Part shown: piece by piece, positions 26,910 through 56,160 of the stretch
How the letters are laid out: each line of letters opens with the position of its first letter
Position numbering within the stretch: the first letter of the stretch is position 1
NCBI RefSeq assembly: GCF_001299475.1
Contig: NZ_CYUJ01000003.1
Location: 1-64,000, forward strand
Direction of reading: 5' to 3'
Source of the DNA: Neofamilia massiliensis
GTDB taxonomy: Bacteria > Bacillota > Clostridia > Tissierellales > Peptoniphilaceae
Length of the DNA: 64,000 bases
Notes under the pieces: model-generated
What the model was told of the DNA's origin: nothing
Seen by the model: the letters and a program-made list of their open reading frames with translations, nothing else
Databases searched by the model: none
Position numbers and translations under genes: made by a program

Positions 26910-26965
26910 TAGCAAAATTTTCTAAAATGGCTTAATTACAAGCTATATAGAGAATGAAAAATGGC

Positions 26966-26990
26966 TGCTGGTACTCAAATGGTACTGGAA
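26966..26990. repeat. left-end GGTACT repeats, possible integrase arm sites
   Basis: Two GGTACT units (CTGGTACTC at 26968-26976 and GGTACTGG at 26981-26988) about 60 bases inside attL. The same hexamer opens a tandem array near the right end (40908-40930), the layout expected of arm-type recombinase sites. Confidence 0.45.
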
Positions 26991-27044
26991 GTAAAAAAGA
27001 ATAAACTAAATAATAGTTCCAAGTGGTTTACATTTGGGCAAAAT

Positions 27045-27076
27045 AAGACCGTAGTTTAAAAACTGCGGTCTTTTTG
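27045..27076 (+). terminator. terminator downstream of guaA inside the element
   Basis: Stem AAGACCGTAGTT / AACTGCGGTCTT (one mismatch or wobble) followed by TTTTTGCG. It is element-encoded and replaces guaA's displaced terminator. The rest of 26910-27150 holds no gene. Confidence 0.82.
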
Positions 27077-41096: not shown

Positions 41097-41820
41097 GGGT
41101 TTACCACAATAAATACCCCCAGCTATGCTGGGGGAATAATTAGCTTTAGCTTCAAGTAAAAAAACTCCAATCATGTTAAAATAGATTTGTCTATCAATCT
41201 AATTAAATGAAAGGAGTTACCCACGTGGATAATAATAGTTTATCACATACAAAATGAAATTGTAAATATCATATAGTATGTGCACCAAAATACAGAAGAC
41301 AAATAATTTATGGAAGAATAAAAACAGATATAGGAAAAATCTTAAGAGATTTGCTGACTAGAAAAGGAATAAAAATAATAGAGTCAGAGTTATGCATAGA
41401 CCAAGTTCATATGTTGCTAGAGATACCACCAAAATATAGCGTGTCAGAAATAATGGGATACTTAAAAGGAAAAAGTAGCTTAATGATATTTTACCGCCAT
41501 GCCCATTTAAAATATAAGTATAGAAATAGAAACTTTTGGTGTAGAGGTTATTATGTAGATACAGCAGGAAAGAACACGAAGAAAATTCAAGAATATATCC
41601 AAAATCAGTTAAAAGAAGATTTTACAAAAGACCAAATAAGTATAAAGGAATATATGGATCCATTTACTGGAGAAAAAAATGTAAATAATGGAATGAGGCG
41701 CTTTAGCGCTAGTTGAAAAAGTAGTGCGATTGATAGACATTCAGTGTGCACAAGGTGCACAGCAGGTAAAAGCCCCTTATAGGGGCAGAGCAAACCACCG
41801 ACTACGCCGGTGGTTATGAT
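41097..41820 (+). mobile_element. Degenerate IS200-type insertion sequence
   Basis: A left-end hairpin CCCCCAGC-TAT-GCTGGGGG (41116-41134), a broken tnpA and right-end hairpins GCCCC-TTATA-GGGGC (41772-41786) and CCACCG/CGGTGG (41795-41813). These are the subterminal structures that IS200/IS605 transposases recognise. Ends are approximate. It sits immediately right of attR and the displaced terminator. Confidence 0.75.
41225..41716 (+). pseudogene. tnpA: Inactivated IS200-type transposase
   Basis: A frame starting at GTG reads DNNSLSHTK, then TGA at 41255-41257 where the intact copy elsewhere in the window has Trp, then NCKYHIVCAPKYRR and the rest of the Y1 transposase to 41716. The HUH metal motif, DHIH in the intact copy, reads DQVH, so the first His is lost. 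The Tyr-bearing C-terminal helix (TAGKNTKKIQEYIQNQ) remains. It has two independent lesions, so it is a dead copy. An ATG at 41351 could start only a fragment. Confidence 0.88.
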
Positions 41821-43594: not shown

Positions 43595-43640
43595 TTTTTC
43601 CCTTGCTTTATTGTCCTTTTAGGTATAGAATTTTATATGA

Positions 43641-43730
43641 TTAACAGGGGAGCTTGTTTTACAGGCTGAGAGGAAGTTTTTAACTTCGACCCTTATACCT
43701 GATGTGGATAATGCCGCCGTAGGAATTATA
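43641..43730 (+). promoter_or_regulatory. TPP riboswitch (THI element)
   Basis: Carries the conserved parts in order: GGGGAGC, GGCTGAGAGGA (pyrimidine-sensing arm), GACCCTTATACCTGATGTGGATAATGCC and CGTAGGAA. It precedes thiW-thiM, so thiamine pyrophosphate should shut off uptake and salvage of the thiazole moiety. A stem ACAGG/CCTGT with a U-run (43745-43782) follows and may be its terminator. Confidence 0.93.
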
Positions 43731-43744
43731 TTTTTGTATTTTTT

Positions 43745-43782
43745 ACAGGTCTAGACCACTTAGGTATTAGCCCTGTTTTTTA
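43745..43782 (+). terminator. Possible riboswitch-controlled terminator
   Basis: ACAGG (43745-43749) can pair with CCTGT (43772-43776) and is followed by TTTTTTATT. The stem is short, with extra pairing possible inside, so assignment is moderate. Confidence 0.45.
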
Positions 43783-43798
43783 TTACTTTTAAGGAAGG

Positions 43799-43950
43799 AG
43801 GAAATTGTCTAACTGAGGTGGAGCGCCCTTGGTTTAGTATATCAGCGATGGGAAGCCGTGTTCCGGCGTGAGAGGATACCATAAAGTATCGACCGCAAGT
43901 AAAAATATCTCTTAGAGATTTTATTGAAACGTTGCTGATTTTGACGTTTC
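43799..43950 (+). ncRNA. Unidentified structured leader RNA upstream of thiW
   Basis: About 150 bases, clearly richer in G+C than the surroundings, lie between the TPP riboswitch and thiW without any ORF. Visible hairpins are GCCG-TGTTC-CGGC (43855-43867), GATAC-CATAAA-GTATC (43875-43890), ATCTCT/AGAGAT (about 43907-43919) and GAAACGT/ACGTTTC (43925-43951). ATCAGC in the first part can pair with GCTGAT inside the last loop. I could not match it to a known riboswitch class. Confidence 0.5.
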
Positions 43951-43975
43951 CAACTATTTTAAAAGGAGAATTTTA

Positions 43976-44494
43976 ATGAATAAAAATAATACAAAGAAGT
44001 TAGCCTTGGCATCAATGTTTTGTGCCCTGGCAGTTGTTGGCAGTCTGTTTTCTTTTCCAGTTTTTGGATCTAAGTGTGCCCCAGTCCAACATATGATTAA
44101 TGTTTTGTGTGCAGTATTTTTAGGACCTGCCTACGGAGTTGGCGTTGCCTTTGCTGCAGCCTTAATACGAAATCTTTTAGGTATTGGCTCTTTAATGGCT
44201 TTCCCTGGTGGAATGTTTGGCGCCTTTGTCTGCGGCCTAGTTTATAAAAAAACTAAAAGCCTTATTCCAACTGTTATTGGCGAAGTTTTTGGAACTGGAA
44301 TTTTAGGTGGCCTTGCTGCCTACCCTGTAGCAATTTTATTTATGGGAAAATCTACAGGAGATATAGGCTTTTACGTTTATATTGTTCTATTTTTAATTTC
44401 AACTGCAGTTGGCGCAGTTTTTGCAGGCCTTATTCTCTATTCTTTAGAAAAGTCAAAAGTCTTAGCAAACTTACAAAATTCACTTTCTTTTTAG
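43976..44494 (+). CDS. thiW: ThiW, thiamine-related ECF transporter S component
   Basis: A 172-residue protein with five to six hydrophobic helices. The segments SFPVFGSKCAPVQHMINV and GIGSLMAFPGGMFGAFVCGL match ThiW, the substrate-binding subunit thought to import the thiazole precursor of thiamine. An ATG lies behind AAAAGGAGAATTTT. Control by the TPP riboswitch and co-transcription with thiM, whose kinase uses the same thiazole, support the call. Confidence 0.93.
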   Translation: MNKNNTKKLALASMFCALAVVGSLFSFPVFGSKCAPVQHMINVLCAVFLGPAYGVGVAFAAALIRNLLGIGSLMAFPGGMFGAFVCGLVYKKTKSLIPTVIGEVFGTGILGGLAAYPVAILFMGKSTGDIGFYVYIVLFLISTAVGAVFAGLILYSLEKSKVLANLQNSLSF

Positions 44495-44503
44495 GAGACC
44501 TTA

Positions 44504-45325
44504 ATGTTTGGGGAATTTTTAGAAAATGTCAAAATAAAAAAGCCTATTATCCACAATATTACAAATTTTGTTACAGCAAATGACTGTGCAAATATTTTGC
44601 TTGCTGCAGGAGCGTCGCCTATTATGGCCAATGAATACAAGGAAATGGCTGATATTACAAGGCTTTCTCATGGCTTGAATATTAATTTAGGAACTATTAA
44701 TGACAGTCTAGTTCCTTCTATGCTTTTAGCAGGAAAACTTTCTAATGAATTGTCCCATCCAGTGGTCTTAGACCTTGTAGGAGTTGGTGCTTCTTCTTAT
44801 AGGTTTGATGTTTGTAAAAGGCTAATAGAACAAATTAAATTTTCTGTTGTTAAGGGAAATATTTCTGAAATAAAAACATTAATTTTAGAAAAAAATTTTT
44901 CAAATGGCGTCGATGCAAGGTCTCTGGACCAAGTTAGTGAAAATTCTATCCTAAACAGTTTAGAAACCATAAAATCCTATGCAAAGAAAGTACAATGTAC
45001 TTTAGTAGTAACAGGTCCTGTTGATTTAGTTACTAATGGAGACCGAAGTATTTTAATTGAAAACGGCCATCCAATAATGACAAGTATTACAGGTAGTGGT
45101 TGTATGCTTTCGGCCTTAATTTCGGCTTTTATTTCTTCAAACAAAGATAAAATTTTTAAAGCTACAGCAGCAGCTGTTTCTGCCTTTGGTCTAGCTGGTG
45201 AAATTGCCTATACTAGACTTAATGACTTAGACGGAAGCGGGACCTTTAGAACTTATTTAATTGATGGGATTTATAATATGAGACCAGATGATTTAAATAA
45301 AAATTCTAAATATAGAGAAATATAA
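44504..45325 (+). CDS. thiM: Hydroxyethylthiazole kinase
   Basis: A 273-residue ribokinase-fold enzyme that phosphorylates 4-methyl-5-hydroxyethylthiazole in thiamine salvage. HNITNFVTANDCANILLAAGASPIMA near the N-terminus, VLDLVGVGAS and VVKGNISEI are family landmarks, and TSITGSGCMLSA carries the anion hole and catalytic Cys. It lies 9 bases after thiW and ends at a strong terminator. No thiD or thiE is in the window. Confidence 0.96.
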   Translation: MFGEFLENVKIKKPIIHNITNFVTANDCANILLAAGASPIMANEYKEMADITRLSHGLNINLGTINDSLVPSMLLAGKLSNELSHPVVLDLVGVGASSYRFDVCKRLIEQIKFSVVKGNISEIKTLILEKNFSNGVDARSLDQVSENSILNSLETIKSYAKKVQCTLVVTGPVDLVTNGDRSILIENGHPIMTSITGSGCMLSALISAFISSNKDKIFKATAAAVSAFGLAGEIAYTRLNDLDGSGTFRTYLIDGIYNMRPDDLNKNSKYREI

Positions 45326-55459: not shown

Positions 55460-56160
55460 CAATAATCATCCCCCGGCGTAGCCGGGGGTTTTTCTCATGC
55501 GGCCCAAAGGGCCTGTATTACCAGCCACGCCTCAATGGCGTTGGTTAGTCCGCCACTTGCAACTTCTACTTGCTACCCTTTAAAAGGGTCAACTACATCA
55601 AATGTTAGTTGTTCGCTTAACTGATCTTGTTTTAATTGGTTTTGGATATATTCTTGGATTGCTTTTGCATTTTTACCTGCTGTGTCTACATAATATCCTC
55701 TACACCAAAACTGTCTTCCTCTGTATTTATATTTTAAATTTCCCCATCTTTCATATATCATTATGCTACTCTTTCCTTTTAAAAATCCCATAAAACTTGA
55801 TACTGATAGTTTTGGTGGTATTTCTACTAACATATGAATATGATCTGGGCATACTTCCGCTTCTATTATGTTTACTAATTTCCAGCTACATAATTCTCGA
55901 AGTATTTGTCCTATTTCTAATCTTTTGCTTCCGTAAAATTCTTTTCTCCTATATTTTGGTGCAAATACTATATGGTATTTACAGTTCCATTTTGTATGTG
56001 ATAAACTATGTTTGTCATTTATTGATGACATTTTCTTACCTCCTTGATATTTTTTATTGCAGTTGGCGAACTACAATTTAATTATATATCATAGGAGGTT
56101 TTTTGTTGGTTTTTCATCGCTAAAGCTATACTGAACCCCCAGTCTAACTGGGGGTTTTCT
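55460..56160 (-). mobile_element. Intact IS200-type insertion sequence
   Basis: A left-end hairpin AACCCCCAGT/ACTGGGGGTT (56134-56156), an intact tnpA and downstream hairpins GGCCC/GGGCC (55502-55514) and CCCCCGG/CCGGGGG (55470-55488). There is no tnpB. Ends are approximate. It lies between the DUF5317 gene and rpsR and interrupts nothing obvious. Confidence 0.82.
55573..56031 (-). CDS. tnpA: IS200-type Y1 transposase
   Basis: A 152-residue HUH transposase. SLSHTKWNCKYHIVFAPKYRR starts the fold, CPDHIHMLVEIPP holds the His-hydrophobe-His metal site, and FWCRGYYVDTAGKN followed by IQEYIQNQ carries the catalytic Tyr helix. It is full length and uninterrupted, unlike the copy at 41225. It moves single-stranded DNA by peel and paste. 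ATG behind AAGGAGGTAAGAAA. Confidence 0.95.
   Translation of the reverse strand: MSSINDKHSLSHTKWNCKYHIVFAPKYRRKEFYGSKRLEIGQILRELCSWKLVNIIEAEVCPDHIHMLVEIPPKLSVSSFMGFLKGKSSIMIYERWGNLKYKYRGRQFWCRGYYVDTAGKNAKAIQEYIQNQLKQDQLSEQLTFDVVDPFKG

Follow-up and report, generated by a model that had tools for sequence, protein, structure and literature searches.

A candidate riboswitch class ahead of thiazole-uptake genes in Bacillota that appears to reuse half of the thiamine pyrophosphate aptamer

Introduction

Why would a leader that already carries a complete riboswitch hold a second structured RNA ahead of the same genes? In the 64,000-nucleotide (nt) stretch of Neofamilia massiliensis contig NZ_CYUJ01000003.1 analysed here (hereafter the window), a thiamine pyrophosphate (TPP) riboswitch with its hairpin and T-run is followed by about 190 non-coding bases before thiW (43976), within which an RNA domain lies at 43800–43951 (hereafter the element; with its relatives, the motif). 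A sequence-only reading of this stretch had proposed that the TPP riboswitch is followed in tandem by a further, independent sensor whose ligand may be a thiamine precursor, and this is the interpretation that the sequence evidence presented below favours. A validated riboswitch for hydroxymethylpyrimidine (HMP) diphosphate (HMP-PP), the thiS motif, is reported to be an ON switch and to follow a TPP riboswitch at about 30% of its sites (PMC6478431), and it has been tested in tandem on the thiW leader of Clostridium lundense (PMC6478431; Atilho et al. 2019). From comparative analysis, we consider it virtually certain that the element is a conserved cis-regulatory RNA, and very probable that it would bind a metabolite through a TPP-like arm. 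That it is a riboswitch reusing the TPP pyrimidine-binding arm to sense an HMP compound, likely HMP-PP or the monophosphate HMP-P, in tandem with the TPP riboswitch, we place at about an even chance.

Results

The stretch behind the TPP riboswitch is structured and raised in G+C, as had been described from the letters alone. Its G+C content is 43.1% over 43799–43951 and 52.9% over the core (43811–43895), against 31.4% for the whole window, where 3.4% and 0.9% of equal-sized segments, respectively, are as G+C-rich. With a folding energy of −43.5 kcal/mol, it folds better than every one of 200 shuffles, which average −34.5 kcal/mol (z −2.9). Four hairpins had been listed, which correspond to P0, P3, P3a and an A+T-rich one at 43899–43925 (Table 1), and all quoted sequences are present, except that GAGGTGGAGCGCC, given as the start of the stretch, begins at 43815. 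The proposed search with Rfam covariance models returned no known class: in the window, the element matched no Rfam 15 family, even at E ≤10 under permissive filters, the sole match on the stretch being a transfer-messenger RNA on the opposite strand at a chance-level 6.6 bits (gathering threshold 47), and none matched the motif in 18 other loci at the gathering threshold.

Relatives are numerous and share the same position. A BLAST search of 61 genomes yielded one clear relative (E 1.1e-15, 81%), likewise located between a TPP riboswitch and thiW; weak matches in two further genomes (G024 and G026) proved on reading to be sequences without the motif and were discarded. A two-sequence profile run over thiW leaders of the order then picked up additional relatives, and a covariance model (R1) built from ten sequences detected the motif in 11 of the order's 249 genomes at ≥64 bits, own genome included, with true motifs scoring 64–92 bits and the matches sitting directly 5' of thiW sites. 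When one genome per species was scanned with a sequence pattern, at least 118 stretches were retrieved, a lower bound on abundance, and covariance models R1 or R2 confirmed all 118. Because the scan pattern fixes GCKA, GGG, TGT and TGAGAG (P0, P3a and GACC lie outside it), we claim invariance at pattern-fixed columns solely on the basis of 25 other loci, which a profile or covariance model had located. Three low-scoring loci (L286–L288, 43–46 bits) look by sequence like TPP riboswitches, and the motif and base counts exclude them. Among the matches listed, all 80 record titles belong to Bacillota (Clostridia, Negativicutes and Erysipelotrichia). The class sample gave 15 of 393 genomes at ≥66 bits (16 at E ≤1e-8) and the phylum sample 9 of 398 at E ≤1e-10, own genome counted in both; the window's genome holds one copy. 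The element is thereby confirmed as a widespread, strongly conserved RNA ahead of thiazole-uptake genes in many Firmicutes.

The homologous leaders whose collection the sequence-only reading had advised show strong conservation and covariation, by which a chance fold or an unconserved leader is ruled out. Contig ends truncate 4 of the 91 loci (L188, L208, L224 and L226), and their removal left an alignment of 87 sequences (85 distinct), in which 16 of 21 pairs show changes on both sides and 93.9% of cells are paired. Among the distinct sequences, cells changed on both sides number 372, versus 105 in shuffles, and shifting the partner by one column lowers pairing to about half. The 28 rows found without the pattern, in which the three TPP riboswitches were kept, behave alike (138 cells versus 40 in shuffles). 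Both-side changes occur in all nine pairs of P0 (one of which is mismatched in 68 of 85 sequences), in 3 of 4 pairs of P3, whose cells are 100% paired, and in 4 of 5 pairs of P3a. The conserved parts are P0 with its GGAGCR loop, P2, P3, UGAGA, P3a and GACCG; GAGC occurs in 25/25 loci not chosen by the pattern and in 85/87 of the alignment, the exceptions being L158 and L207, identical sequences in which GAGC is absent where the model sets P0. A long-range pairing of ATCAGC with GCTGAT, suggested earlier and here named P1, is supported among relatives (mean complementarity score 15.6 versus 12.5, standard deviation 0.23, over 30 swaps of downstream halves between loci; n=87) and reaches at least 5 base pairs in 71 of 87 loci, taking the best match per locus uncorrected for choice. 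The C94-G170 pair of model R1 never varied and was dropped for R2, since C94 fits P1. A P3a loop adenine (43885) is invariant in 24/24 loci with a letter at that position, presumably a difference from TPP riboswitches, and might dock against the P0 loop.

By sequence comparison, the 3' half of the element is a near copy of the TPP pyrimidine-binding arm. The likeness to the CTGAGA part of TPP aptamers, earlier called faint, is extensive, and the accompanying view that the rest resembles nothing in TPP aptamers was wrong. Over whole genomes, TPP riboswitches are the next-best class of the motif model: 17 of the 19 next-best loci returned reach the Rfam TPP gathering threshold, L150 reads as TPP and L141 is the remaining one, while the window's own TPP riboswitch scores 37.5 bits. 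A sequence profile of 15 TPP aptamers matched 56 of 139 motif loci at E ≤0.01 (83 unmatched), and all but four of its matches are confined to the pyrimidine arm; at L230, L242 and L251 the profile extends beyond the arm, yet these sequences lack the pyrophosphate signature. In TPP structures, the aminopyrimidine is described as lying between G42 and A43 and bonded to G40 and G19, the thiazole being less constrained, with hydrophobic contacts only (PMC7824784); G19-G42-A47, and A41 with G18-C48, are reported to stabilise the aminopyrimidine, with U39-A43 forming a T-loop (PMC3764141). Under our own mapping of TPP numbering, the bases that contact or support the aminopyrimidine are invariant in the 25 loci not chosen by the pattern, with the equivalents of the UGAGA T-loop, G19, A47 and G18-C48 present in every one.

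The other half of the TPP aptamer has no such counterpart. The P4/P5 pyrophosphate signature (CUGAU...GGAUAAUGCC...GCGUAGG) was found within 140 nt downstream at 1 of 139 loci, where it belongs to the separate TPP riboswitch of L209; as a control, it was detected upstream of the motif in 73 of 134. Shared with the TPP riboswitch (RF00059) are P2, the G19 equivalent, P3, the UGAGA T-loop, P3a, the A47 equivalent and an enclosing P1. The motif differs from it in having no detected P4/P5 pyrophosphate arm and a variable hairpin X there instead, an additional GA(U) bulge between P1 and P2, an A.G closure of P3 beside UGAGA (64/87, where the Rfam TPP consensus has G-C) and an added 5' hairpin P0 with a GGAGCR loop; the Rfam TPP model does not match it under the thresholds given above (E ≤10 in the window, gathering in the 18 loci).

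Gene context is nearly uniform. We searched 3.5 kilobases behind 143 loci for the ThiW, ThiM, transporter binding protein, ThiE and ThiD families, and the first match was thiW at 121 loci, thiM at 3 and the binding protein of a phosphonate-type ATP-binding cassette (ABC) transporter at 10; the 9 loci with no match each had less than 700 nt of searchable sequence. One of these three thus comes first in 134/134 assessable loci, and thiW or thiM in 124/134 (L182 is counted as thiW, overlapping frames there also matching ThiM). The thiW frame starts downstream of TGAGAG at a median distance of 36 nt and a maximum of 408 nt. Six more loci from the phylum sample all precede thiW, three with a TPP riboswitch upstream. 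A sequence profile detected a TPP riboswitch within the preceding 450 nt at 83 of the 122 loci that are thiW or unjudged; among thiM loci the count was 2 of 3, and among transporter loci 0 of 9. ThiC was detected in 18 of 25 motif genomes and full ThiG in 4 of 25 (E under 1e-50), the window's genome having ThiC and no full ThiG, versus ThiC in 42 and full ThiG in 21 of 55 thiW genomes without the motif, a weak comparison given a phylogenetically uneven sample and some incomplete genomes.

Some leaders hold more than two sensors. L202 and L095 each hold three sensors in succession, a pair of TPP riboswitches and then the motif, and the leader of L202 (Floccifex porci) shares 96% identity over 578 bases with that of L095, a genome from the window's family, which suggests lateral transfer or a binning error. 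In the leader of L209, the motif is flanked by TPP riboswitches on both sides.

The ten ABC-transporter loci (L172, L177, L183, L201, L215, L223, L238, L247, L250 and L266) form a separate group. The one binding protein tested, from L215, matches PF12974 (106 bits) with a sub-cut-off likeness to the thiamine-binding CypI family, and the same transporter has a PhnC-like ATPase slightly under cut-off and a long permease. A terminator-like hairpin with a T-rich stretch follows the motif in 10/10 of these loci (the U-run is weak in two), about 100–200 nt behind TGAGAG and with no overlap with the core. We regard this transporter as a candidate for bringing a thiamine precursor or phosphate ester into the cell.

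For thiW loci, the platform is apparently translational. In the 34 of 87 leaders that passed our filters (P1 found, start codon with a Shine-Dalgarno sequence), complementarity predicts a P4 helix between the two strands on either side of the P1 3' strand (z 10.8). The first of these could also pair farther upstream as hairpin X (z 6.0), and the second is similar to an anti-Shine-Dalgarno sequence (z 2.7). The upstream 55 nt are complementary to the region 60–110 nt behind the core (z 6.0), which partly reflects complementarity to coding sequence; in the window, the outer-helix partner sits 48 nt behind the core. We make no claim for pairing between the upstream strand and the 16 nt that immediately follow the core (z 1.7–2.2). 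No U-run follows the core in the window, and terminator-like sites within 330 nt occur at 41 of 114 non-transporter loci, many far enough away to lie in the gene. The window leader was folded with nested structures only, so that a P1/P4 pseudoknot falls outside the model, and this folding does not separate ON from OFF. At L181 and L211, the leader 5' of P0 is complementary over 12–13 bases to the downstream coding start (a conserved VVIS stretch).

Table 1. Features of the N. massiliensis thiW leader and following genes (window coordinates)
Feature	Position	Strand	Basis
TPP riboswitch aptamer, first sensor of the tandem	43636..43742	+	Rfam RF00059, 69.1 bits (gathering 54.3)
Hairpin and T-run, probable TPP riboswitch terminator	43745..43784 (approx.)	+	Direct from sequence
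Outer helix 5' strand, predicted, partner 43943-43951; Shine-Dalgarno-like	43800..43809	+	Predicted fold
P0 hairpin, loop GGAGCG at 43820-43825	43811..43834	+	Covariation, GAGC conservation
P1 5' strand ATCAGC	43841..43846	+	Long-range complementarity among relatives
GA(U) bulge, P1/P2 junction	43847..43849	+	Motif alignments; not in TPP aptamers aligned here
P2 5' strand GG, then G (TPP G19 equivalent), then AA	43850..43854	+	GGG in 25/25 loci not pattern-chosen
P3 hairpin GCCG-TGTTC-CGGC	43855..43867	+	Covariation
UGAGA, equivalent of TPP J3-2 T-loop U39-A43 (aminopyrimidine grip)	43869..43873	+	25/25; role as reported in PMC3764141, PMC7824784
P3a hairpin	43875..43890	+	Covariation
GACCG: A, TPP A47 equivalent; CC, P2 3' strand	43891..43895	+	ACCG 25/25; first-position G 24/25
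Hairpin X, variable, A+T-rich, in place of TPP pyrophosphate arm	43899..43925	+	Predicted fold; complementarity z 6.0 (34 leaders)
P4 hairpin GAAACGT...ACGTTTC, loop holds P1 3' strand	43926..43950	+	Complementarity z 10.8 (34 leaders)
P1 3' strand GCTGAT	43934..43939	+	Complementarity among relatives
Outer helix 3' strand, predicted; possible anti-Shine-Dalgarno TTTCC at 43947-43951	43943..43951	+	Fold, complementarity
thiW Shine-Dalgarno region	43965..43969	+	Sequence
thiW, energy-coupling factor (ECF) S-component for thiazole precursor	43976..44494	+	PF09512 165.7 bits; TIGR02359 152.2 bits
thiM, hydroxyethylthiazole kinase	44504..45325	+	PF02110 240.8 bits; NF006830 300 bits

Two further Rfam matches lie elsewhere in the window. 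A match to the Streptococcus small RNA SpR18 (RF02446, 100.8 bits) at 26935-27066 comes right after a guaA-like gene and precedes an open reading frame and a helix-turn-helix-like gene on the opposite strand; this site may be the edge of an inserted element. An STnc490 match (RF01405, 64.5 bits; 56041-56156, − strand) lies directly upstream of what appears by sequence to be an IS200-type transposase (55573-56031), and a similar fragment occurs at 41351-41716.

Discussion

Taken together, these observations suggest a mechanism in which the pyrimidine arm (P2, P3, the UGAGA T-loop and P3a) would bind a compound with an HMP ring, accompanied, in place of the pyrophosphate arm, by the 5' hairpin with its near-invariant GAGC loop. 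We favour an HMP-containing ligand because the conserved pocket is the aminopyrimidine pocket, and disfavour TPP itself because the pyrophosphate arm is lost and the position is a tandem one; that the ligand is HMP-PP or HMP-P, the most likely such compounds, we judge about as probable as its opposite. Ligand binding would change how the anti-Shine-Dalgarno strand pairs and so control translation of the thiW-thiM mRNA, with thiazole uptake turned ON when the pyrimidine half waits and TPP is low, the upstream TPP riboswitch providing the second input. Where a genome has ThiC and no full ThiG, pyrimidine can be made and thiazole would be needed from outside, and waiting HMP-PP would therefore be a sensible cue for thiW. 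The ON sense, slightly favoured for thiW, is the least certain step. In the ABC-transporter leaders, the same aptamer would act ahead of the terminator-like hairpin.

Several observations weigh against this HMP-sensing scheme. The pyrimidine pocket would also fit thiamin, thiamin monophosphate (TMP) or TPP, and both ligand binding and the effect on expression are inferred. Complementarity for the outer helix is weak at the window spacing (z 1.8 for the upstream 55 nt against 16–60 nt). In the predicted window fold, three of the four Shine-Dalgarno GGAG bases are open whether or not the core is enforced, and blocking them costs 10.6 kcal/mol, such that the predicted fold does not display the switch. 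No TPP riboswitch was detected within 450 nt upstream at 39 of 122 thiW or unjudged loci, and full ThiG is also absent from 34 of 55 thiW genomes without the motif. At the ten transporter loci, the one binding protein tested resembles CypI at a sub-cut-off level only, and an OFF switch would suit this transporter better.

The last point bears on the alternative that survives best, a variant OFF switch that senses the finished vitamin or a near form of it (thiamin, TMP or TPP), which we consider unlikely but a serious contender. Retention of the TPP pyrimidine pocket is what it would predict, the faint CypI likeness at ten transporter loci with a TPP riboswitch upstream in 0/9 and a terminator-like hairpin in 10/10 is consistent with it, and a 2022 review cites unpublished findings from its own laboratory that some RNAs classed as TPP riboswitches are thiamin/TMP variants (PMC9481103). 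Those variants are TPP-related aptamers, possibly in tandem with TPP riboswitches, as the motif is; they differ in being already classed as TPP riboswitches, whereas the motif goes unrecognised by the TPP model at E ≤10 in the window and lacks the pyrophosphate arm. A same-ligand sensor behind a complete TPP riboswitch and terminator would also add little, although tandem TPP pairs are known.

The genes themselves raise a different possibility, since thiW or thiM comes next in 124 of 134 assessable loci and ThiW and ThiM handle hydroxyethylthiazole (HET) and its phosphate (HET-P). A sensor for either compound is nonetheless improbable, as the conserved pocket grips the aminopyrimidine, the thiazole of TPP is described as the less constrained part (PMC7824784), and HET-P switching on its own supply would make no sense according to the HMP-PP riboswitch study (PMC6478431). 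Still less probable is a protein-bound leader or a TPP riboswitch kept by chance in a decayed state: a metabolite ligand for the motif is inferred only, which leaves room for it, but covariation and invariance across orders and classes would not be expected from decay. Finally, identity with the known thiS-motif HMP-PP riboswitch, with which the element shares slot, genes and TPP tandem, is scarcely credible, given that the thiS RNA is reported as a short aptamer within an intrinsic terminator with a U-run (PMC6478431) and the motif has a core of about 85 nt, other folds and no consistent terminator ahead of the gene at thiW loci.

As systems, the two RNAs are nevertheless comparable. Both stand at HET-P genes, thiW included, and often behind TPP riboswitches, with the motif's transporter group as the exception; the thiS motif is compact and terminator-embedded, and the motif is larger, carries a TPP-like arm and is apparently translational at thiW. 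No description of the element was found in the open literature (subscription papers and preprints lay outside the scope), nor was it found in passages of three large RNA-discovery papers (PMC6429828, PMC8632094 and PMC11109978). We propose the motif as an uncatalogued candidate class of riboswitch in which half of a known aptamer serves as the foundation.

SAM-IV riboswitches, set beside SAM-I (both named after their ligand, S-adenosylmethionine), are a precedent for a new class with a known ligand core but other outer parts, differing from the motif in ligand and being an unrelated RNA. The full proposal, namely a widespread new Bacillota riboswitch class joining half of the TPP aptamer to a new hairpin, sensing HMP-PP or HMP-P, forming a two-input gate with the TPP riboswitch as a second, differently built answer to the job done by thiS, and pointing as well to an ABC importer for a thiamine precursor, falls slightly short of an even chance in our judgement. 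If pyrimidine-precursor sensing holds true, the motif would show how one half of an aptamer can be reused to change ligand and would add, in Firmicutes, a second naturally occurring logic gate that governs vitamin B1 supply. It would also name an ABC transporter as a thiamine-pathway gene, and compounds directed at TPP riboswitches may strike the motif too.
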